Part shown: piece after piece, positions 33,788-47,571 of the stretch
How the letters are laid out: the number at the start of each line of letters is the position of its first letter
Numbering within the stretch: position 1 is the stretch's first letter
Origin: Acetobacteraceae bacterium B3987
Lineage (GTDB): Bacteria > Pseudomonadota > Alphaproteobacteria > Acetobacterales > Acetobacteraceae
Assembly: GCA_026537415.1 (NCBI GenBank)
Contig: JAFNMF010000026.1
Span: 1 to 47,818 of the forward strand
Direction: 5' to 3'
DNA length: 47,818 nucleotides
Position numbers and translations under genes: made by a program
Notes under the pieces: generated by a model
The model's database searches: none
What the model saw: the letters and a program-made list of their open reading frames with translations, nothing else
What the model was told of the DNA's origin: nothing

Positions 33788-33885
33788 TGATGCGGCGTGA
33801 CACGGTGATAATCTGCAGGCCGTAGCTGTGGCTATCAGCCACGTGGCGCATTGCGGGGTTCATTGCAGGCCCCGCCGCCGCATCA
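33788..33885 (+). ncRNA. Structured element A (unrecognised RNA-like motif)
   Basis: About 98 nt with a 10-bp closing stem (TGATGCGGCG with CGCCGCATCA). Inside, in order, are the conserved block GGTGATAATCTGC (33804-33816), a variable arm with hairpin GTGGCT-ATC-AGCCAC, and a 6-bp hairpin GCGGGG/CCCCGC with an 11-base loop containing GCAGG that abuts the closing stem. CTGC 33813-33816 can pair with loop GCAG 33865-33868 as a pseudoknot. Element B has the same layout with different but still paired stems. It lies 80 nt after the siderophore receptor stop, on the same strand. No known RNA family is recognised. Confidence 0.6.
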
Positions 33886-33925
33886 CTTACGTCCAGCTTA
33901 TTCCCTCGTGGTGCGAGAGTTTAAA

Positions 33926-34022
33926 CAGCACATGGGTGGGGCCTGCCAGAAACCCCACAATAACGCAACTACCCTAACAGGCGGCCCAGGCCGGCAGAAT
34001 ATCACCTGATCACCATGTGCTG
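33926..34022 (-). ncRNA. Structured element B, convergent homologue of A
   Basis: Read on the minus strand, it has a 10-bp closing stem (CAGCACATGG with CCATGTGCTG), then TGATCA, the block GGTGATATTCTGC, a variable 35-nt arm, and a 6-bp hairpin GTGGGG/CCCCAC with an 11-base loop TTTCTGGCAGG directly joined to the closing stem. Element A matches position for position, with paired changes in both stems. The loop GCAG can pair with CTGC of the conserved block. It lies 56 nt past the distal end of the CRISPR array in the array's transcription direction. TATATT (34045-34040) is a possible -10 of its own. Confidence 0.6.
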
Positions 34023-34077: not shown

Positions 34078-37000
34078 CGGTTCATCCCCGCATGGGCGGG
34101 GAACAGTCTTTGCGCTCCTGCATGATCTGGGTGAGCGACGGTTCATCCCCGCATGGGCGGGGAACAGGATGGCAACAACAATCCGGTCTCTGTCACCTAC
34201 GGTTCATCCCCGCATGGGCGGGGAACAGTCCCCATGATCGAGGCACCACCTGAAAATCCCCGGTTCATCCCCGCATGGGCGGGGAACAGATTGAAGGAAT
34301 TGATGATAAGCCTGTGGAATTCGGTTCATCCCCGCATGGGCGGGGAACAGGGAGAGTTTAATAAGAGACACGAGACGGGAATCGGTTCATCCCCGCATGG
34401 GCGGGGAACAGATGCCAGAGATTGCCTGCGAGAAATGACCCGTCGGTTCATCCCCGCATGGGCGGGGAACAGCCTTTGAAAGGTGGGAAACGACGGGGTT
34501 TCTCCGGTTCATCCCCGCATGGGCGGGGAACAGAGGTATATATTGTCTATACTTGATTAATGTGTCGGTTCATCCCCGCATGGGCGGGGAACAGCTTTAA
34601 CTGATCGCCGAATCCATAAACAAAATCGGTTCATCCCCGCATGGGCGGGGAACAGTATACAGGTCATCTGGTGACCTTGCATATAGGCGGTTCATCCCCG
34701 CATGGGCGGGGAACAGTATTAAGATTGAAACGGTCACGCCATTCTCTCCGGTTCATCCCCGCATGGGCGGGGAACAGCTCATGCAGGCTGTGATCGCCGT
34801 CAGGAAACTCGGTTCATCCCCGCATGGGCGGGGAACAGATTAAAGAGACCATTATAAGTGACAAGATCATCGGTTCATCCCCGCATGGGCGGGGAACAGG
34901 GAATGTCATCTGCGAAGTCTTCAAACGACGTAGGTTCATCCCCGCATGGGCGGGGAACAGCTTTTCGTGAGAGTAGGAGGGCTGGATAATATCGGTTCAT
35001 CCCCGCATGGGCGGGGAACAGTTCCATCACCCCGGGCGGGAAAATGGACGAACCGGTTCATCCCCGCATGGGCGGGGAACAGTTCGGGGAGATCGGTAAT
35101 CGCATTTTGGCGGCCGGTTCATCCCCGCATGGGCGGGGAACAGGCGAACACATAGGGGGAATGGGCCGTGAAGGGCGGTTCATCCCCGCATGGGCGGGGA
35201 ACAGTTCATGAAACTTTTTTAGAAAAATTGGGAAAACGGTTCATCCCCGCATGGGCGGGGAACAGTCTATGGTTTTTTTTGATAATTTTTAAAAAAACGG
35301 TTCATCCCCGCATGGGCGGGGAACAGACTGGCTGAAGATAGAATGGACATTACCCCACCGGTTCATCCCCGCATGGGCGGGGAACAGATGAGAGGGGAAA
35401 CAGCCCTTGTTTCCAAAGTAGGTTCATCCCCGCATGGGCGGGGAACAGTCACCCCGTTATGAGGTCGCTGTTTTTGAAAACGGTTCATCCCCGCATGGGC
35501 GGGGAACAGTCATTATTATTTAACATTAAGAGAGGCGTGGACGGTTCATCCCCGCATGGGCGGGGAACAGCTGTCTCTGAGTGTTGGCGTAGAGGATGTC
35601 ACCGGTTCATCCCCGCATGGGCGGGGAACAGTCCGGCGGCTCTGGATTGTAATTCAGACCACACGGTTCATCCCCGCATGGGCGGGGAACAGGGGAAAGA
35701 TATAAATACAACAAACCATAAATACGGTTCATCCCCGCATGGGCGGGGAACAGTTCCCGCTTGTCTTCCGTCTTCTGGATTGCCTCGGTTCATCCCCGCA
35801 TGGGCGGGGAACAGCTATGGGAAATATTATAGGAGGTGGAGCCTATCGGTTCATCCCCGCATGGGCGGGGAACAGTCGACCAGCTGCTTTACCGACATGG
35901 CGAGCGACGGTTCATCCCCGCATGGGCGGGGAACAGTTTTTAGTGGATATGGGGATACTGGGAAAGCACGGTTCATCCCCGCATGGGCGGGGAACAGCGT
36001 TTCTTACCGTCTGGCCCGATAATGACCTTCGGTTCATCCCCGCATGGGCGGGGAACAGTAAACCCTAGCCTAATAGGAGAATGAAGATGGCGGTTCATCC
36101 CCGCATGGGCGGGGAACAGGGGCAGCCTGTGGCTTTGCTGATGGCCCTCTCCGGTTCATCCCCGCATGGGCGGGGAACAGTGCCGCATTGTTGGTGCTGT
36201 AGTCGTCTGGTGAGGTTCATCCCCGCATGGGCGGGGAACAGACAGGGTATGCCTATTCCTGAGACTGGCTTTTCGGTTCATCCCCGCATGGGCGGGGAAC
36301 AGTTGAGGGCCAGAGCTGAGATGAGCCGGTAGGGCGGTTCATCCCCGCATGGGCGGGGAACAGAATGTCGCTGCCACTAGCCCTTAGAATGCCTGCGGTT
36401 CATCCCCGCATGGGCGGGGAACAGAACAGCGTGTCAGCCCTACTCAAAAATTAGTCCGGTTCATCCCCGCATGGGCGGGGAACAGTATAGATGAACGGGA
36501 ATATCAAGTATTTCCTCAGGTTCATCCCCGCATGGGCGGGGAACAGACGGGTCTGGTTGTGCTGTTCTGTCAGCTGTGCGGTTCATCCCCGCATGGGCGG
36601 GGAACAGGCTATTCGCTGACCTTTCCGATCAGCCAGATCGGTTCATCCCCGCATGGGCGGGGAACAGTTCCAGACAGATGATGTGGTCAGGGAATACGGA
36701 GGTTCATCCCCGCATGGGCGGGGAACAGCGTTTGCGGGTGATGCCGTAATTGTGCCTCAACGGTTCATCCCCGCATGGGCGGGGAACAGGGCCGTGAAGC
36801 AGATCCTCAAGCTCCGCAAGCAGGTTCATCCCCGCATGGGCGGGGAACAGGCAGTACCGCCATGACGGTGCTATTCTGGCTGCGGTTCATCCCCGCATGG
36901 GCGGGGAACAGTTTTTCGAGGCCCTGCGTAATATCCACAGGCGCGGTTCATCCCCGCATGGGCGGGGAACAGATTGCAGAGAGCAGCCATTAGGGAAGGG

Positions 37001-38681
37001 GCGTCGGTTCATCCCCGCATGGGCGGGGAACAGTGCCAGAATGGTGACAGGTCCGGCGGCGGCGGCGGTTCATCCCCGCATGGGCGGGGAACAGGACGGC
37101 TGGAGAGGTGGCCGAGGTGCTGGAGAGGGTTCATCCCCGCATGGGCGGGGAACAGGGCGGCGGGGTATACCCCACCAATTCGCCACCCGGTTCATCCCCG
37201 CATGGGCGGGGAACAGGGCTGGAGCGTGGCGATAATGATGGCGTCACCCGGTTCATCCCCGCATGGGCGGGGAACAGACGGGCATTGATGGCAGCGTTAT
37301 CCTCAAACTCGGTTCATCCCCGCATGGGCGGGGAACAGAGATGTCATGGATAGGAGACCACTTCATCTGTCGGTTCATCCCCGCATGGGCGGGGAACAGA
37401 GTTCGCCGGGCTGGATATACTCGCCGCTAATCTGGTTCATCCCCGCATGGGCGGGGAACAGTGTTGGGCCAAAAAAAATGGGATATATCCCATCGGTTCA
37501 TCCCCGCATGGGCGGGGAACAGCGACTGCCAGCTCTGAAGGTCCGACAAGGCCGCGGTTCATCCCCGCATGGGCGGGGAACAGCCTGATTGGGAGCTATT
37601 GACGTATTCTACGGCCGGTTCATCCCCGCATGGGCGGGGAACAGGAACGTCTTATTAGTGTTCATGCGGCATAAACCGGTTCATCCCCGCATGGGCGGGG
37701 AACAGGTTCATCTGAACCTCCATCAATGAACCATCGCCGGTTCATCCCCGCATGGGCGGGGAACAGGACAAATGACCCCATTCTGTGCAGGTCTCCTTCG
37801 GTTCATCCCCGCATGGGCGGGGAACAGAACCCGTTGAACCTGTCCAGAACTGTATTTGCCGGTTCATCCCCGCATGGGCGGGGAACAGGTTCTGTTCCTC
37901 TGTGGTCTGGACGGGTGAAACGGTTCATCCCCGCATGGGCGGGGAACAGCTTTTCTCTGGTGGAAGGGGTGCGTTCTTTGACGGTTCATCCCCGCATGGG
38001 CGGGGAACAGCGCATATCATCTCACGTCAGTTAAATTGGCTCTGGTTCATCCCCGCATGGGCGGGGAACAGGATGGCTAACGTCTCTGCTTTTTCATTGG
38101 CTCCGGTTCATCCCCGCATGGGCGGGGAACAGGTTCCCCGGATTGTTATTGCGGATGCCTCGGGGGGTTCATCCCCGCATGGGCGGGGAACAGGGGGGCA
38201 GAAGCGGCGGGGGATATGCAGAGTAAGGTTCATCCCCGCATGGGCGGGGAACAGAACAAGCAGCTGGTTTTGCCGCATATAAAAAACGGTTCATCCCCGC
38301 ATGGGCGGGGAACAGGAAATAACCTGTCCCTCCTCACCCAGCTTACAGGGTTCATCCCCGCATGGGCGGGGAACAGTTTCAGCCCCATAGCGTCAAGACA
38401 TTCCAGCACGGTTCATCCCCGCATGGGCGGGGAACAGGGCCCGCTGGCCAAAATTGCAGATGAGGCAGACGGTTCATCCCCGCATGGGCGGGGAACAGTG
38501 CAAGCGTGGCTTTCGTCAGCTCGTTCCGCTCGGTTCATCCCCGCATGGGCGGGGAACAGTTTCACGCAACCGTAAGTTCCTGCATGGCTTACGGTTCATC
38601 CCCGCATGGGCGGGGAACAGGAGAGTCAGTATTTCTAAGAATCTGATGCTCACGGTTCATCCCCGCATGGGCGGGGAACAG
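34078..38681 (-). CRISPR. Type I-E CRISPR array, 76 repeats and 75 spacers
   Basis: The 29-nt repeat, read on the plus strand, begins CGGTTCATCCCC and ends GCATGGGCGGGGAACAG. On the minus strand it is the usual I-E form beginning CTGTTCCCCGCC and ending GGATGAACCG, with a stem-loop for Cas6e. The period is 61 bp; counting the lattice from 34078 to the repeat starting at 38653 gives 76 repeats. Spacers are 32 nt except a 31-nt one (36608-36638) and a 33-nt one (37400-37432). Repeats are identical except for the leader-distal terminal base. Orientation follows from the repeat and from the leader and cas2 lying at the right end, so the newest spacers are near 38680. There is no degenerate terminal repeat. 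Confidence 0.98.
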
Positions 38682-38750: not shown

Positions 38751-39999
<1,249 letters not shown>

Positions 40000-40003
<4 letters not shown>

Positions 40004-40683
40004 GAAGCCCGCCGGATCAGTATGAGGCCACAGCCGAAGGCCTTGGCACGCCCAAAGCCTTTGACCAGCTGGGCCAGAAAGGCCTCAGGGTCTGTCACTT
40101 CCAGACGCCCTTCGAAATCCAGAATACCCAGTTTCGGCCTATCCGCCCTGCGCCCATTGAAACGGGGAAGAAGTTCAACACGATAATCATCAACCCGCAC
40201 ATCATCAGGGCTGAAAATGAAACCGGCTTTCTCTCCCTGTCGGGCCAGCCACGCCGTTCCTTCCTCCTGAGCCAGACACATACGCTCTTCTGCCCTGTTC
40301 TCCTGTGGCACGGCATGGAGTGCATCCATCACGACATCAACACGCTTGCCAATGTCACGGCGCATCTTTGTCGCATTGGCCTGAAGTTTGAACTCCAGCC
40401 TGTCACCAGCTTTCAGGGCAGGCGCAAACACCTTGTGCTGCGACGTCTCAAACAGCTCGTTATCGCCTCTTGGCGGGTGTGACGAAAGTGTCAGGAAGCT
40501 CCCATCACTCTCCGCACGCCAGAGGTAATCACGCTTCTGGTTTGGGTCCGTGGCAAAGGCAGACCAGAGCATATGATGCTGGGAGGACCGCCGATACCCT
40601 GCGTCGGGATGCCTCAGAGCCTCCTCCAGAACACGAACGGCGGGACTGCGGGACAGACGAAGTCTGCTCAGATACCAGCTCAT
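40000..40683 (-). CDS. cas6e: crRNA endonuclease Cas6e
   Basis: A 227-residue Cas6e (CasE) that cuts the repeat hairpin to release crRNAs. MSWYLSRLRLSRSP is the standard N-terminus, QHHMLWSAF holds the likely catalytic His, and the C-terminal glycine-rich GFGRAKAFGCGLILI is typical of the RAMP fold. ATG 40683 overlaps the cas5 stop (ATGA); the extra 7 upstream residues of the open frame are rejected. Confidence 0.93.
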
Positions 40684-41369
40684 TTCGACGACTCCCTCGG
40701 CCACGCCACATGCCGTATTCCGACTTCCCGTGCAGCAAAGTGCCAGCGTTGTCGATCCAGCGGCACATCATGCACGAGATCACGCTGACTGCCCTCCTTC
40801 CCGACAACCATGACGTTTTCAACACGGCTGACACGCCCTGCAAGCCATTCAGGTATTCTCAGCTGCCCCAGAGCATCATCAACCGTATCAGCCTGCACGA
40901 TCTGCGGGGCAGGTGGGGCGGAAAGAGGGCAGGACTTACGGCCAAGATAGAGCATGAAATACGGCTTGCGTAACGCTGCCGCTATTTCTTCCAGCCCTTC
41001 ACCCTGCACGGCCACGCCATAAAACACACCGGCACGATAATCACGCAGGGTGATGCTGGTTGTCAGACGTCCCCCTGCGGCCCGGATGGCTTCCGGGCGG
41101 GAGTTCGGCTTCTTCACAGCTGCGGCAGGAACAGACTGGATGGTATGAAAATCCCGCAAAGCCGCACCGCTACTGAACACGGCCACGTCAATCTCCAGAG
41201 CATCCAGCATGGAGAAATCACCATCCCGCCGGATACCTAGAGCCGCTCCCATCAACCCGATCAGCGCAGAACGGCCCGGCCAGAGCAGCGATCCCCGCCG
41301 CTCATGCCCGGCCAACTCACCCATTGCTCCTAAAGAAGCCGCAAGTGAGAACACCAGATAGGAGGACAT
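40680..41369 (-). CDS. cas5: Cascade subunit Cas5e (CasD)
   Basis: A 229-residue Cas5e that binds the 5' handle of the crRNA. SYLVFSLAASLGAMGELAGHERRGSLLWPGRSALIGLMGAALG is the family N-terminus (residues 3-45). DFHTIQSVP and TTSITLRDYRAGVFYGVAV are further family segments. The ATG at 41369 overlaps the cas7 stop (TGATG). Confidence 0.93.
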   Translation of the reverse strand: MSSYLVFSLAASLGAMGELAGHERRGSLLWPGRSALIGLMGAALGIRRDGDFSMLDALEIDVAVFSSGAALRDFHTIQSVPAAAVKKPNSRPEAIRAAGGRLTTSITLRDYRAGVFYGVAVQGEGLEEIAAALRKPYFMLYLGRKSCPLSAPPAPQIVQADTVDDALGQLRIPEWLAGRVSRVENVMVVGKEGSQRDLVHDVPLDRQRWHFAAREVGIRHVAWPRESSK

Positions 41370-42469
41370 CACTCACCCCGCAGTGCGGCTTTACCAGCAA
41401 AGGTAGCAACGTCTTCCAATGTACCAGTTTTATTCACCCATAGCTCTTTTTCAGAGTCCCATTTACCCGTATACACCTTAGCCTCAGCATTCCAGCACTG
41501 CCCATAGACATCATCAATGGCTTTCCGGGTTGCTTCTAACTTTTTGATAGAACTCTCCAAAAGGCTCGCCCCCTTCACGGCCTCAAAGAACGCACCTGAC
41601 AAATCACGAGGGGCCTGCTCACCCTGTTCCGCAAGCATGTAATTTGCCCGTGGATGATGTGCATAACTATTCTGCTTTCCACGAGGCGTGGCCTGAGACA
41701 GACCTCTTGCCAGTGCCTCCATCCCCCTGGCAGCAAGCTCCTTATCACCGTCCAGATTCTCAATAAGCAGGCCCACATCCACGCAGACATACTGATAGAA
41801 GACACCCGTCCCGAAGGCACTCTCACCAATATGACCGGCTCCTGTCTCATCATCCCCGGCAAGGTCATCAACAGCAGAGAACCAGTCTTCCTGCGCTACG
41901 GAGCGATGGGTTGTGAAAGCATGAGCCACCTGTACGGCAGCATCCCGGTTAAAATCGGCATCGGAAGCCAGCATACGCCCGAACATGGCCACATCCACCG
42001 CACCATCGGCCCGACGGAGGACAAGTTTCTTCAGCTCTTTGTCCTTCGGCAATTTCTCACCAGCAGCAGCCTTCTCGGCCAACTCTTTTGCCAGCGCACG
42101 TTCCTCGGGGGAAATGAAAGCCAGCGTCGTCGCCACCTGTTCAGAAGACCCTTTTTCAACAGCTTCGAGTTTACCAAAAATGGCTGCCACAACATCCGCT
42201 GCTTCCAGAGCCTTCTTTTCAGCAATCCCCTGCCCCAGAAGATGCGTCACTAGTTCACCATGAAGGCGTTTGGTTCTCACCCCCATATGATCTTTCAGAT
42301 CCTGCGCAAAGAAGGTGCTTTCACGCAAGGCACGCTTCACCGACTGTGATGAATGACGCATCCGTATCTCACCACCAATCTCCGCCTGTTTGGGATTCCC
42401 CAAATCATCACGGTTCGGGTTGGAAGGCCCGTAAGTCGTCAGAACATGAAATTGAACAAAATTCGCCAT
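41369..42469 (-). CDS. cas7: Cascade backbone subunit Cas7e (CasC)
   Basis: A 366-residue Cas7e; six copies form the crRNA filament in Cascade. The standard start MANFVQFHVLTTYGPSNPNRDD and the block EIGGEIRMRHSSQSVKRALR are present, as are SAFGTGVFYQYVCVDV and QATPRGKQNSYAHHP. ATG 42469 has GAGAGG about 9 bases upstream; the longer open frame to 42589 overlaps cas11 and is rejected. A 49-base gap separates it from cas11. Confidence 0.95.
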   Translation of the reverse strand: MANFVQFHVLTTYGPSNPNRDDLGNPKQAEIGGEIRMRHSSQSVKRALRESTFFAQDLKDHMGVRTKRLHGELVTHLLGQGIAEKKALEAADVVAAIFGKLEAVEKGSSEQVATTLAFISPEERALAKELAEKAAAGEKLPKDKELKKLVLRRADGAVDVAMFGRMLASDADFNRDAAVQVAHAFTTHRSVAQEDWFSAVDDLAGDDETGAGHIGESAFGTGVFYQYVCVDVGLLIENLDGDKELAARGMEALARGLSQATPRGKQNSYAHHPRANYMLAEQGEQAPRDLSGAFFEAVKGASLLESSIKKLEATRKAIDDVYGQCWNAEAKVYTGKWDSEKELWVNKTGTLEDVATFAGKAALRGE

Positions 42470-42518
42470 GATAAAATTCCTCTCCACAGCCTGAATACCA
42501 ACCTGCACAAGGCAGGCC

Positions 42519-43046
42519 TTATCCTGCTTTTCCCTCAGATATTGAGGCATCAAAATAATCGAGACACCAGCGGATCCTGGTCTGCTCATTCCAGACGATC
42601 ATGTCCCATGCGAGCCTCGCCACATTGCAGCGACCTCCCACCAGCCGCACGGCACGACGCAGCAAGGCAGCCCGTTTATCATCATCAGCCGTTACCAGCT
42701 GCCTGAAACGCATATGAGACAATACCGGCTCACTACCCGTCCCTCTCAGCAGCTCCGCCAAAGGCCTGGGATCGTGCTCCCGGATTTCACCAAGAAGATT
42801 GAGCAGATAGCTGAACCGTTTCAGCTCATTGTCCCGCAGGCCAAGCTGCTTCCTCAGACCCTGCGTCTCTGGCTCGAACAGAACCGCAGGGAAAACACCC
42901 CGCCGCAGCTTTGCACTCAGAGCCCGCGCTGCGGTCTGAGACGCTCTGCTCGCCCGCTCATCTTCATTCTCACTCTGTGTACGGGCTGACAGACTGGTAC
43001 GCCACCACGCCAGTACCTGCGCCCCTACATCCCTTTTCTCGTTCAT
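42519..43046 (-). CDS. cse2: Cascade small subunit Cas11 (Cse2/CasB)
   Basis: A 175-residue mostly helical protein; two copies stabilise the R-loop in I-E Cascade. WWRTSLSARTQSENEDERASRA and RFRQLVTADDDKRAALLRRAVRLVGG are recognisable Cse2 blocks. The start overlaps the cas8e stop by ATGA. Confidence 0.93.
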   Translation of the reverse strand: MNEKRDVGAQVLAWWRTSLSARTQSENEDERASRASQTAARALSAKLRRGVFPAVLFEPETQGLRKQLGLRDNELKRFSYLLNLLGEIREHDPRPLAELLRGTGSEPVLSHMRFRQLVTADDDKRAALLRRAVRLVGGRCNVARLAWDMIVWNEQTRIRWCLDYFDASISEGKAG

Positions 43047-44554
43047 GTAGCCTTCCTCTCCTTTTTCTTTTTGGGAAGGGGGAGGTCCAGAGTCTCAAAC
43101 AAAAGAGCCCCTGCCTTGCCATATCCCCGTAGCTCCAGACCAAGAACCCTCCGGGCTTCAGTAATCTTTTTCATTTCCTGCATCGTACGATCTGCCAGCC
43201 CCGACAAAGCTAGAGGATCAAACTGCGCCCAGACCTGCCTGCGCAGAGCCTTTAGCCAGATGATGGAAAGAACATCCTCATCATCTTCATGAGGGCATAT
43301 GATCTTGCGGAAACAGCTGTAAAACTCAGATTCGGTTTTTACATAAAACTCTTCACGCTGTGCTTCCCGTGCCTCTCCCACTGATAAAAGCGGTATAAGC
43401 GCACGATTCAGCATGTCCGCTACCACATGGGCAGCTTCAATAAGAACTGTCAGCTGCTCCATTTCGTCATCAGAAAGACACTGTATGGGCTGGCGTGAAC
43501 AGATAAAATCCCTCGGACTCATGTTGTTCATGGCCCAGCCTGCCACAATAACCGAAGGCTCCTGCTCTGGGTCTCTCTCGCCTCTTTTTCCCCTTCGCCA
43601 TTCACGAAGGGTCAAGGCCAATTCGGCCAACCCCTGCTCTTTCTGATGCCTGTCAGGTTTTACGGCAACAACCCCTAACCAGTTACGATAGCCAAACCGT
43701 CCTGCCCTTGGATGGCGGGGTAACAGTTCAGACCCGGGTTTCAGCCTGTAATAAGGGCTTAGAGGATGCCGCCACTGGGCATAATTGGCACCGTAAGGCT
43801 TCTGTATGACGCCTGTGACCTTTTCCCCATCCCCCACAAGGCGCAGACGGCGAGGCATACCGAAAAAGGCTTCAACACCAAAACCCTTCACCGGATCAGG
43901 AGGCTGGACTATCTGTCCTTTCTCTGAAGTCCGTGTCGGTTTCATCCACGGCAGGTCTTTCATTTCAGAAGGACTACCGAAAGGGACATTCATCCAGATG
44001 AGGTCCCATAAAGCCTTGCCCGGATCAACAATCGTCACAAGAGGGCCACCACCGCGCATGGATGTCCGGTTCCCCGCACCACCGGATGGAGCAAAATCCT
44101 GCAACGTATAAAGCGCCATAGCGGCTTCTGGCAGTGGCAAGGACTCATATCGATCCCGGTGGACCATGACATCAATATTATTGCGCTTTGTCTGACCACC
44201 AGCACTATCGATAAACAGCATGTCCACCGGGTTAGGTGCCCCCTCCAGCTTCTCCTGATCCTGAAGAAAGCGAGGGCCATCCCCAAGCAGAAAAAAAGCC
44301 GGAGCAAAAGGAGCCAGTCGGGCCTTCAGCCGTTCCGGGTCAGGCTTTTTCCGTTCATGCCAAGCCCTCGTATCCTCAGGAGGATCGGCCATATAGATAA
44401 GCCCAATGAGCAACTCCAGACAGGCAATATTGAGATCAGCCCGGAACCAGTCAGGGAAAAGCACATCCGCTTCTGCCATTTGCCACGGAGCAATGACCCG
44501 TTTCTCACCATTGGCACACTGCACTGGAATCCACGGGTCCGTAATCAGATTCAT
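43043..44554 (-). CDS. cse1: Cascade large subunit Cas8e (Cse1/CasA)
   Basis: A 503-residue Cse1, the PAM-recognising subunit, close to the 502 residues of the E. coli protein. MNLITDPWIPVQCANG is the family start. FFLLGDGPRFLQD and QTKRNNIDVMVHRDRYESLPLPEAAMALYTLQDFAPSGGAGNRTSMRGGGPL form the central block around residues 120-170. The C-terminal four-helix bundle is present. It heads a tightly overlapping operon that runs to cas2. Confidence 0.95.
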   Translation of the reverse strand: MNLITDPWIPVQCANGEKRVIAPWQMAEADVLFPDWFRADLNIACLELLIGLIYMADPPEDTRAWHERKKPDPERLKARLAPFAPAFFLLGDGPRFLQDQEKLEGAPNPVDMLFIDSAGGQTKRNNIDVMVHRDRYESLPLPEAAMALYTLQDFAPSGGAGNRTSMRGGGPLVTIVDPGKALWDLIWMNVPFGSPSEMKDLPWMKPTRTSEKGQIVQPPDPVKGFGVEAFFGMPRRLRLVGDGEKVTGVIQKPYGANYAQWRHPLSPYYRLKPGSELLPRHPRAGRFGYRNWLGVVAVKPDRHQKEQGLAELALTLREWRRGKRGERDPEQEPSVIVAGWAMNNMSPRDFICSRQPIQCLSDDEMEQLTVLIEAAHVVADMLNRALIPLLSVGEAREAQREEFYVKTESEFYSCFRKIICPHEDDEDVLSIIWLKALRRQVWAQFDPLALSGLADRTMQEMKKITEARRVLGLELRGYGKAGALLFETLDLPLPKKKKERKAT

Positions 44555-44716
44555 TGCTTATGTTGCCTTCCGCTCTAGTCCCACACAGCCACTTCTCAAA
44601 GCAGAGACCACTTAAACGGGCTGTGCCACGTTTCAGCCTAACGCTTCTTCCTCGGATTCATCTCATTGAATATTCCTGAAAAGAACCAGAAAGACAAGAG
44701 AAAACCTTATAACAAC

Positions 44717-44745
44717 AAAATACAAAACAAATCATACTCCATCAA
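44717..44745 (-). promoter_or_regulatory. Possible Cascade operon promoter between cas3 and cas8e
   Basis: The 235-base gap 44555-44789 between cas3 and cas8e is AT-rich and has no gene. On the minus strand TTGATG and TATTTT are 17 bases apart. If real, cas8e-cas2 would be expressed separately from cas3, as in E. coli. Confidence 0.35.
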
Positions 44746-44789
44746 ACATTACCATGAAAAGTTACCATCATTTTCCACAGAAATAGCCA

Positions 44790-47327
44790 TCAAGATGAAG
44801 ACACAAAATCAATCCCTCTCGCCTTATCGTAGCGTAATCCCTTACAGATTTCTCCCCCCGGGAGCTGAACAGGACACAACTTAATAGTCGACATTTCCCG
44901 TTTCCATTTAGGCCAGTCTTTCTTTACCGCCTGAATGGCTGGACTGTTCTGGTCAGGCAAATCCAGTCCCTGAAGCTTCTTTGTCCGAACAGACACTTCT
45001 GAAAGCATCCACAAGGCTCTCATTATCTGGGCATCATCTCCCCCCAGGTGCGGATGATCTTCAGGCAAGGCCCACGGAATCAGACCTTCTTCCGTCTGCC
45101 GGGCCAGAACCAAAGTCTCGGTTGGTTCTGCAAGGCGTGTAGGATAGGCCACATCATCCTGTCCCAATCCAGCGTCCCGATAGCTGGCCTCAAGATTCAC
45201 GATATTCTGAGAAGCGACCCCTCTTGCCGCTGCACCCTTTCCTTCCTTATCCAACTCTGCCTGTTCAAATATTGAAGGCAAAGGCTCAGCTTTCTTGCCA
45301 TGCACGGCTTCAATCAGATGCCGCAACCCTTCTGGAGCAGTAATCTGCCCTTCCCTGAACAGGACAGAGGCTGTCCTCCACATGTCAGGCAATGAATAGA
45401 TCATGGCATTCTTGGCCAGAGTTCCTTTCTCCCACTCACCACCCTGTATGTCCGCAGGGTCTGGAGACAGGAGCTTCAGGACAGGAAAGGGGACAGGACG
45501 ATCTTTAGCAGGACGCACATCCATATGCCGCCAGAGCCGTCCCACACGCTGTATCAGAGACCCGATTGAAGCCAAATCGGAAACCATCAAGTCAAAATCA
45601 AGATCAAGGGAAGCCTCGACAATCTGGGTCGATACCAGAACAAAGCCCTTACGATTCTTCCCTGTTTTTCCCACACACTCCAGAACATCTTTTTCCAGTT
45701 TTTTCCGGTCACAAAGCGCAAAACGGGCATGTAACAGATGGGCATCAATACCCGCCTCTCGAAGAGCATCAACAGCAGCAATCGCATCGTCCACGATATT
45801 ACGTACCCAAACACAGGCTGCTCCCTGCGCTGCACCCTGTACCAGATACTGGACGGCTTCATCCATCGTGGCGATCCGCTCGACCTTCACACTGCCTTTT
45901 GTCGGGCGTGCATCAGCCGCAAATTCGGTAACACTCTCCCCACCTGCTACTGTTATGGCCGGATAGGCCAGTGATTCAGATACTCCGCCATATGTAGCAA
46001 GCAGTTCGGATCGCCATTCCAGCGGCAATGTTGCTGTCAACAGGATGGCTGAACCACCCATAGCACGATGCATTTTCAGCAAGGTAACCAGTATTTCCGC
46101 AACGTAAGGTTCACCCATCTCATGAACCTCATCGACCACCAGTATCTTGGAGGCCAGACCGTAATGCCGCAATGTCTGGAAGCGCACACGCAGAGCAGAT
46201 AACAGTGCCTGATCGATCGTTCCAACGCCCACATCCGCCAGAAGGGCACGTCTGTTATCCATCGCCAACCACTCTGAGCTGGTCATATCTCTCGCATTAT
46301 CATCCGATGCCGTATTGCTTCCATCCGCCACGACATCCTTGAAAAGAACAGATAACCCCGCACGCCCATGAGCAAGAGTTACTGAAGGATTCTGGAACAA
46401 CTTGCCCACAGTCTGCGACGCTCTGCTAAACATGGCATCGGCCGTAGCCATGGTTGGCAGGGCAAAAAACATGCCTTTTCCCTTACCTGCCAAAGCCATA
46501 CGTTGTGCCAGAATAAAGGCAGCCTCTGTCTTTCCAATTCCAGTTTCCGCCTCCAGCACAATCAAGGTAGGACCATCTGGCAGAGGAAGAGTCTCACAGG
46601 CCTGCTGTATAGGACGTAAGGCGAAATCAAACAGCGGCCCCTTCTGTGCCTCTGTTCCTTTCAGACCCGCCTCCTGTACAGCCCTTTGCGCCACAGAACG
46701 TGCCCGTTCAAGATATTCCGCTGGGGAACTGTTCAGTTCTCTAGGCGGGAACCATTTTGTATTGGAACCAATCCAGTCTGCCGCCGTACAGAAACCCGGC
46801 AACCACCAGGAAAAACGTCGGGCAGATTCCTCATCCAACGACTCTAGTGATGCTTCCGGCCAGAGCCCTCTGAAGATATCCAGCAACTGCTGAGCCGCTT
46901 CTCTTCCCTCCCCCACGGCTTTTAAGCTTTTCCTGCGTTCACGCAGAATCCACACATCGATGTCTGGAGGACGCCCATGATGACCGGCTACAGCAGCATA
47001 AAGGATCTGGCGAACCTCTTCTGTTCCACCCAGCCAGGTCTCCAGCCTTTCATCTTCTGCAAACAGAAGGACTTCTGTGAGTTCCCAGTGCGAATAAGTT
47101 TGCACCATCCCTTCCCGCAACATGCCGCGGAAGCTTTCACTAAATTTTCCGAGATCATGCAGCCCTACCAAAGCAACGAAAGCCTGCTTCAGTTCATGCG
47201 ACCACGGCTGTGTAGAGATCAGCTGCTCAGCCACAGCGGCTACATCAAGCATATGATAGATGGCAGGATGTTCCATATTCTCGGGCGGCCGGGCACTTTT
47301 GGCTGGCCAATTGGACCATTCCTGCAT
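44790..47327 (-). CDS. cas3: CRISPR nuclease-helicase Cas3
   Basis: An 845-residue Cas3 that degrades target DNA after recruitment by Cascade. The N-terminal HD nuclease domain has the metal ligands His57-Asp58 (LHDLGKF) and AGHHGRPP. The helicase domain has Walker A (ETGIGKTEAA), the DEVH box (VVDEVHEMGEPY), LLTATLP and QRVGRLWRH. Both activities therefore appear intact. ATG 47327 has GAGGGG upstream; a TTG at 47345 would add 6 residues and is less likely. It is the first cas gene in the direction of transcription. Confidence 0.95.
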   Translation of the reverse strand: MQEWSNWPAKSARPPENMEHPAIYHMLDVAAVAEQLISTQPWSHELKQAFVALVGLHDLGKFSESFRGMLREGMVQTYSHWELTEVLLFAEDERLETWLGGTEEVRQILYAAVAGHHGRPPDIDVWILRERRKSLKAVGEGREAAQQLLDIFRGLWPEASLESLDEESARRFSWWLPGFCTAADWIGSNTKWFPPRELNSSPAEYLERARSVAQRAVQEAGLKGTEAQKGPLFDFALRPIQQACETLPLPDGPTLIVLEAETGIGKTEAAFILAQRMALAGKGKGMFFALPTMATADAMFSRASQTVGKLFQNPSVTLAHGRAGLSVLFKDVVADGSNTASDDNARDMTSSEWLAMDNRRALLADVGVGTIDQALLSALRVRFQTLRHYGLASKILVVDEVHEMGEPYVAEILVTLLKMHRAMGGSAILLTATLPLEWRSELLATYGGVSESLAYPAITVAGGESVTEFAADARPTKGSVKVERIATMDEAVQYLVQGAAQGAACVWVRNIVDDAIAAVDALREAGIDAHLLHARFALCDRKKLEKDVLECVGKTGKNRKGFVLVSTQIVEASLDLDFDLMVSDLASIGSLIQRVGRLWRHMDVRPAKDRPVPFPVLKLLSPDPADIQGGEWEKGTLAKNAMIYSLPDMWRTASVLFREGQITAPEGLRHLIEAVHGKKAEPLPSIFEQAELDKEGKGAAARGVASQNIVNLEASYRDAGLGQDDVAYPTRLAEPTETLVLARQTEEGLIPWALPEDHPHLGGDDAQIMRALWMLSEVSVRTKKLQGLDLPDQNSPAIQAVKKDWPKWKREMSTIKLCPVQLPGGEICKGLRYDKARGIDFVSSS

Positions 47328-47571
47328 GACTGAACATCCCCTCAAAAACTTCTCTCAACCGAGGGAAGCCTAGCAGCCTATTGCAGAAAACTGAAAGCTC
47401 TTCCCTTCAATCATCCGTTCACTTTTTCATAATATTGTAGATACACCTCTTGAGCATTATCTACGGGAACGCCGAGGGGTCGTCATATACCGCCCCCGTT
47501 AGAGATTAGCGGGACTACGAGACGCATATCTGAGGTGGTATGACGTGATTTATATGTAAGGGGGGGTAATT

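Follow-up and report, generated by a model that had tools for sequence, protein, structure and literature searches.

We analysed a stretch of 47,818 nucleotides from Acetobacteraceae bacterium B3987 (contig JAFNMF010000026.1; hereafter the window), in which two short convergent elements, A and B, lie beside a clustered regularly interspaced short palindromic repeat (CRISPR) array. On balance we favor the view that A and B are copies of a ~100-nt free-standing RNA that acts as the antidote of a phage-borne RNase with a PBECR-like domain. Comparison among relatives brought out the evidence for this reading: a conserved fold, a -10-like promoter box, a convergent pairing with the predicted nuclease gene, joint presence and absence with the intact nuclease domain, and orphan copies that stay intact. 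A preliminary description of the window had predicted a conserved, covarying RNA fold but had proposed no function; it was the relatives of A and B that pointed to a phage RNase. If the reading is true, these RNAs would form a widespread class of RNA antitoxins with a new fold, and they would supply an immunity partner for the MuF/PBECR phage effectors, for which protection of the producer lacks an explanation.

Fold, promoter and distribution of the RNA family

A model of the covariance type built from A and B alone (R1; R2 and R3 are later models) produced matches outside the window's genus down to E = 2.5e-15 and, at E ≤ 0.1, matches in 28 of 200 Acetobacteraceae genomes, the four weakest of which are doubtful (the weak matches L043, L044, and L046 were not used). 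Loci L065 and L066 were not confirmed. In a MAFFT alignment of 27 sequences (A3), 95% of the pair cells were paired and 18 of 29 pairs had changed on both sides, and none of 500 shuffles reached any of these measures. A larger alignment of 98 sequences (A7), which were fitted to the model and hence are biased towards it, reached 96% paired cells, with both sides altered in 17 of 22 pairs; for the closing stem P1, this was the case for 9 of 10 pairs. Thus, the predicted covarying fold was indeed recovered in many further copies with compensatory changes, and the opposite outcome named in the preliminary description, a lack of further copies with paired substitutions, did not occur. The family had also not been recognized there, and Rfam 15 searched at its gathering scores yielded no matches for the window and 45 other loci (a few of which have no copy), while an E-value search of the A/B region returned an unrelated best hit at E = 6.9. 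BLASTN of A against the INPHARED phages gave no match. Judged by these comparisons, A and B are members of an undescribed RNA family.

The general fold consists of a 10-bp P1 that abuts P4 (6 bp; 5 in some copies), with the hairpins P2 and P3 in between. P2 has the form xxGG/CCxx, and a kissing interaction joins its loop (about UGAUAUUCUnCC) to the P4 loop (GGnAGG), which by eye carries an extra hairpin in many relatives outside the Acetobacteraceae. This pseudoknot lies outside the model, and one of its column pairs (32-127 of A7) is CG in 49 sequences, GC in 35, AU in 5, and UA in 3. Strongly conserved unpaired nucleotides are present as well. When checked on the sequence, the coordinates, strands, and pairing proposed for A and B were all borne out, and both copies contain the 10-bp closing stem and the 6-bp hairpin with an 11-nt loop. 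The suggested pairing of GCAG in that loop with CTGC is likewise present in both and belongs to the covarying kissing pseudoknot. Two parts of the original architecture exist but required refinement: part of the 6-nt joint together with the conserved block forms hairpin P2, with CTGC in its loop, and the variable arm folds into a third one (P3), with two covarying pairs closing it. Folding energies by themselves are weak evidence for the structure of A (z -2.30, 5 of 200 shuffles as good) and B (z -1.53, 16 of 200), as their opposite strands have better z values (-3.29 and -2.97, respectively); the comparative evidence is decisive.

Wobble pairs favor the strand assigned here, with 184 G-U against 20 A-C over all pair cells, although 89 of the 184 come from one nearly invariant U-G. 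A TANNNT box starts between -20 and -10 in 50 of 96 copies, compared with 14, 3, 6, and 11 in control windows, and its peak at -12 indicates that transcription probably starts at the first base of P1. The RNA is therefore most likely encoded by a free-standing gene of about 100 nt. The preliminary description had placed A and B in the 3' flanks of a receptor transcript and of the CRISPR transcript, respectively, which does not describe the family elsewhere, since many copies have a -10-like box just upstream and are convergent with a nuclease gene.

Genomes with the RNA carry one to four copies. In a class-wide sample, R2 detected the RNA in at least 10 of 385 genomes (10 candidates per genome scored at first look), and among at least 118 loci from a broad scan it was found in 31 of 80 by R2 and in 16 of 38 by R3. 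The records concerned are titled Alpha-, Beta-, and Gammaproteobacteria, Desulfovibrio-type bacteria, and SAR324, several being contigs of metagenome-assembled genomes, with single loci in records titled Nitrospiraceae, Chitinispirillia, and Roseithermus. A weak match (L237 445-547, E = 2.7e-4), situated ~200 nt beyond a MuF gene whose C-terminal part is different, may be a divergent subtype.

Pairing with a predicted phage nuclease

Outside the window, the RNA is often found tail-to-tail with a gene whose product ends in a predicted BECR-fold RNase domain (PBECR-like). In most cases this domain is the C-terminal part of gpF, a Mu-like head protein, and sometimes it is a short free-standing frame. 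Beside gpF, the RNA is antisense to the F-G junction and adjoins the F stop codon. At three loci, other sequence lies between the RNA and gpF (L063 5969-7053, L151 3657-4486, and L185 4706-5747), which at L063 includes, by eye, a DNA methylase-like frame. The domain has an invariant His and Lys in 50 members, a TSFRR-type motif in its consensus, and a structural model in which a helix is followed by strands. Pfam PBECR3 matches 9 of the 50 members (best E = 9.1e-6), and the one score given, 24.7 bits, is below the Pfam cut-off of 30. The partner is a predicted endoribonuclease of BECR-like fold. A sequence search of the PDB with the domain returned nothing related. In tblastn searches of INPHARED, one query gave no match and a second gave four weak records (three Helicobacter and one Dulem virus); judged with these two queries, this form of the domain seems hardly present there. 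According to the portions of PMC5512222 and PMC5576092 drawn upon here, gpF-type head proteins with C-terminal RNase-like domains are thought to be injected. The former names PBECR, suggests that some PBECR domains attack CRISPR RNA (crRNA), and raises the idea that the inactive domain of Mu gp30 binds RNA, while the latter proposes MuF toxins and leaves a Proteobacterial C-terminal extension unexplained. Within the Creative Commons-licensed part of PubMed Central (subscription papers and bioRxiv being outside reach), we found no paper joining MuF/PBECR to an RNA.

Co-occurrence was examined at 122 loci that were not chosen by the RNA, comprising the best 30 of 72 PF04233 matches (58 of 299 genomes), 12 domain loci, and the best 80 of 550 IMG/VR MuF loci. 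The RNA accompanied the domain with intact His and Lys at 27 of 32 loci (27 of the 31 with enough sequence; L254 was set aside because its contig ends 62 nt past the gene), including one whose domain is split by a frameshift in its contig (L270). With a degenerate domain, it was present at 1 of 12 loci, and with no domain at 1 of 78 (1 of 69 assessable, as L240, L243, L275, L277-L279, L318, L326, and L328 had too little sequence or no MuF-N match), for a total of 2 of 81. Without formal phylogenetic correction, the Fisher probability is 1.8e-19, or 3.7e-16 without six contigs shared with the RNA-selected set, and it is 2.5e-6 for intact versus degenerate domains alone. Among the 69 MuF proteins lacking the domain, 27 end 21-50 amino acids past the MuF part and 42 carry other parts of 134-305 amino acids. 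In a tree of 112 MuF parts, loci with domain plus RNA and loci with neither are interleaved in several clades (e.g. L301 beside L299/L305, L312/L316/L321 beside L309, and L281-L285 beside L288); eight of its tips are cut by contig ends, and truncated loci are still shown there, labeled no-domain.

Orphan RNAs and CRISPR arrays

With R3 at E ≤ 0.001, the RNA was detected in 27 of the 200 Acetobacteraceae genomes, the domain in 14, and both in 10 (Fisher 2.7e-7), each search scoring a limited number of candidates. The RNA alone was found in 17 genomes and the domain alone in 4, the latter being weaker matches (E = 1e-10 to 1e-14). The RNA without the nuclease is common, whereas the intact nuclease without the RNA is rare. 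RNAs that lack a domain frame are not decaying, as 95.5% of cells are paired in 41 of them taken from 35 loci. Tandem copies with no adjacent nuclease also occur (three at L177 5462-5868; two each at L158 5779-6035, L035 1501-1759, and L108 4145-4520), and at L177 each of the three has its own TATACT-like or CATACT-like box.

A and B are such orphans, as profile searches of the window's genome returned neither a PF04233 nor a domain match. Orthologues of A occur in 3 of 10 other genomes of the same genus that were searched. In genome G010, the 3' end of copy A keeps a remnant matching 38 domain positions, whereas copy B is flanked on one side by a C-terminal fragment of gpF and on the other by a gpG-like frame, which marks B as what is left of a Mu-like prophage in the CRISPR locus; A is most likely another such relic. 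In the stretch concerned (L017 2280-4042), degenerate type I-E-like repeats lie on one side of a Mu-like gpF-gpG fragment and intact ones on the other, as would be seen had a transposable phage entered the old end of the array. Whereas B occupies the minus strand of the window, in G010 it runs parallel to A, so that a local inversion may separate the two species.

Of 39 orphan lineages, counted by hand, six have an array close to an orphan RNA. The distances are 7 to about 190 nt in the window's genus, 1.4 kb in G023, 95 nt in G247, about 70-130 nt in Nguyenibacter, about 55 nt in Roseithermus, and, for G521, 0.8 kb to the first exact repeat but about 170 nt to decayed repeats. The weak match L098 (G537), one of the 116 rows, was excluded from the orphans and the weak L045 (G150) was included. 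No array was found at the comparison loci (49 + 22 without RNA, 30 MuF, 6 from the same genomes, and 42 viral), so that 6 of 39 compares with 0 of 107 when the viral loci are excluded (Fisher 2.7e-4, for stretches of unequal length and with several orphan loci near contig ends, where arrays could be missed). There was also none in the stretches examined at 10 Acetobacteraceae loci with both RNA and nuclease, while at a further coupled locus, L383 (G582), a run of three repeat copies is found at a distance of 6.5 kb. In all six lineages, the RNA lies past the presumed trailer end of the array, as judged from degenerate last repeats, decayed repeats, or the cas side; in the window, the end at 34078 was taken as the trailer because the cas genes are at the other end (Table 1). 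For Roseithermus, we presume this end from an orientation rule. The RNA runs in the direction of the array in the five other lineages and for copy B of the window, but not for copy A of the window's genus or copy B of G010. Pure chance is disfavored as the cause of this adjacency; either Mu-like phages landing in old array ends leave the RNA behind, as in a graveyard, or the location is useful. More tentatively, the RNA could be an immunity factor against a virion-injected RNase, with which phages protect their own lysogens and which bacteria keep as orphans, repeatedly at CRISPR trailers, as a second, RNA-based protection, the RNase possibly attacking crRNA. The trailer link raises the idea of stacked defences.

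Table 1. Positions of the RNA copies, their structural parts, and the CRISPR-Cas locus in the window
Feature	Position	Strand	Details
RNA copy A, 98 nt, orphan	33788..33885	+	R1/R2/R3 match scores 114/97.5/87.9 bits
A: P1 5' strand	33788..33797	+	pairs with 33876-33885; pairing checked on sequence
A: P2 5' strand	33802..33805	+	pairs with 33820-33823; pairing check and A7 covariation alignment
A: pseudoknot strand UCUGCA	33812..33817	+	pairs with 33864-33869 (UGCAGG, P4 loop); pairing checked
A: P3 hairpin	33825..33847	+	outer pairs 33825-33826 with 33846-33847 (A7), inner 33828-33833 with 33837-33842; all pairs checked
A: P4 hairpin, abuts P1	33853..33875	+	stem 33853-33858 with 33870-33875; pairing check and A7
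RNA copy B, 97 nt, orphan, past trailer end of CRISPR array	33926..34022	-	R1/R2/R3 match scores 111/86.7/81.5 bits
B: P1 5' strand	34013..34022	-	pairs with 33926-33935; pairing checked
B: P2 5' strand	34005..34008	-	pairs with 33987-33990; pairing checked
B: pseudoknot strand UCUGCC	33993..33998	-	pairs with 33942-33947 (GGCAGG); pairing checked; family covariation
B: P4 hairpin	33936..33958	-	stem 33953-33958 with 33936-33941; pairing checked
Type I-E CRISPR array, 64 exact repeats	34078..38681	-	near end 34078, 55 nt from B
Type I-E cas operon (cas3, cse1, cse2, cas7, cas5, cas6, cas1, cas2)	38751-47345	-	NCBIfam

Proposed antidote mechanism, rival explanations and known systems

In the mechanism that we infer, the PBECR-like domain at the gpF C-terminus, or in a short free-standing frame, would be an active RNase encoded convergently with the RNA. 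The RNA would be transcribed from its own sigma-70-type promoter, fold with P1 abutting P4, the hairpins P2 and P3, and kissing P2 and P4 loops, and then bind the nuclease, presumably masking its active site. A cell making or receiving gpF would thus survive until the protein is packaged or diluted. As prophages decay, the nuclease would be lost first and the RNA retained, to the benefit of the cell, with A and B as examples. The rarity of the nuclease without the RNA, together with the frequency of the reverse, is the asymmetry expected of a toxin and its antidote, and it counts against cofactor, packaging, and antisense roles. It should be noted that several observations weigh against this proposal. 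The fold matches of the domain are of middling Z and possibly reflect only a common arrangement, Foldseek by itself returned nothing under E = 0.001, and the -10-like boxes of A and B themselves are weak by eye. The intact domain lacks the RNA at 4 of 31 loci (L252, L256, L261, and L336), where a filters-off scan gave at most 13 bits and where reading L336 and L256 by eye for a divergent RNA yielded nothing convincing, while the 2 of 81 other loci with RNA are L237 (weak) and L257 (Lys replaced by Arg). RNA-coupled proteins were the source of the domain profile, making the class 'degenerate' partly circular; 8 of its 12 rows (L236, L263-L268, and L300) are one clade and so approximately one event, and another, L258, is only a 48-residue piece. 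In addition, the 80 IMG/VR loci were found using gpF parts from RNA-bearing phages. Lastly, the RNA here is convergent, whereas type III antitoxin RNAs precede the toxin within its operon, and co-loss is also compatible with a cofactor or substrate role.

Indeed, an RNA serving as cofactor, guide, activator, or processed substrate, in a ribonucleoprotein that directs or switches on cleavage and is perhaps packaged with gpF, would show the same co-occurrence and co-loss with the intact domain, and the strongly conserved unpaired nucleotides would suit it. We nonetheless consider it unlikely, because such an RNA should decay without its enzyme, yet 17 of the 27 RNA-bearing Acetobacteraceae genomes have no domain match (among the limited candidates scored), RNAs without a domain frame retain their fold, and tandem copies occur with no adjacent nuclease. 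Since it is antisense to the F-G junction and lies close to the stop codon of F, the RNA could alternatively pair in cis with the gpF-gpG late mRNA and limit its expression in a type I-like manner. This seems distinctly improbable, given compensatory changes that preserve a fold unneeded for antisense pairing, MuF genes that mostly lack the RNA when they lack an intact domain, and RNAs beside frames too short for gpF.

We give very little credence to a structural role in assembling the head or packaging the DNA, even though the RNA lies among head genes and its kissing loops are reminiscent of the phi29 packaging RNA. An RNA of that kind would be needed wherever the head and packaging genes are, but none was found at 68 of the 69 assessable MuF loci without the domain, and it is present beside nuclease frames that have no gpF part. 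Least probable of all is a DNA element (insertion-sequence ends, REPIN, or attC) or a terminator or riboswitch in the 3' untranslated regions of the receptor and CRISPR transcripts. In its favor, the pair sits between two genes as inverted, convergent copies, and the opposite strands fold at least as well; however, the wobble pairs favor one strand, many copies begin just after a -10-like box, there are only one to four per genome, and the receptor/CRISPR context is absent from most copies, all of which disfavor the insertion-element, terminator, and riboswitch readings. Among 30 flanking frames, Pfam named no transposase outright, with a weak HTH_32 match in a frame at L036, though no search aimed at insertion elements was made.

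As an antidote, the RNA most resembles those of the type III toxin-antitoxin systems (ToxIN, CptIN, and TenpIN), which, in the part of PMC5086642 considered here, are small pseudoknotted RNAs tied genetically to an endoribonuclease (here predicted) and to phage-related biology. In those systems, the RNA consists of a repeat array that precedes the toxin in the same operon, the two being separated by a terminator, whereas here a single 100-nt multi-helix RNA with its own -10-like box is convergent with a BECR-fold domain that is often fused to a virion protein. The pseudoknot is shared, albeit as a covarying kissing type whose topology differs from the H-type of ToxI. Neither the operon order nor the tandem repeats are found, as one RNA lies beside the nuclease and only some orphans are tandem; because these two defining features fail, we do not file the RNA under type III, though it would work like one. 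In AbiF-RCd22, a phage-encoded toxin is likewise neutralized by direct RNA binding (PMC12373285), as we propose here, but the protein is of the Abi_2/AbiD/F type linked to Cas13, its RNA has the abiF motif, for which the RNA here has no Rfam match, and the abstract describes no virion fusion. The MuF polymorphic toxins and PBECR polyvalent proteins constitute the protein half of the present system, and where the relevant portions of PMC5512222 and PMC5576092 propose small immunity-protein genes after the toxin and mention no RNA partner, the partner here would be an RNA. The pseudo-ToxI mimics of phages also consist of an RNA antitoxin separated from its toxin and protecting in trans, as the orphans here may do; judging from the part of PMC3475682 cited, it is the phage that holds the orphan RNA against a host toxin, whereas here the host would hold the RNA against a phage toxin.
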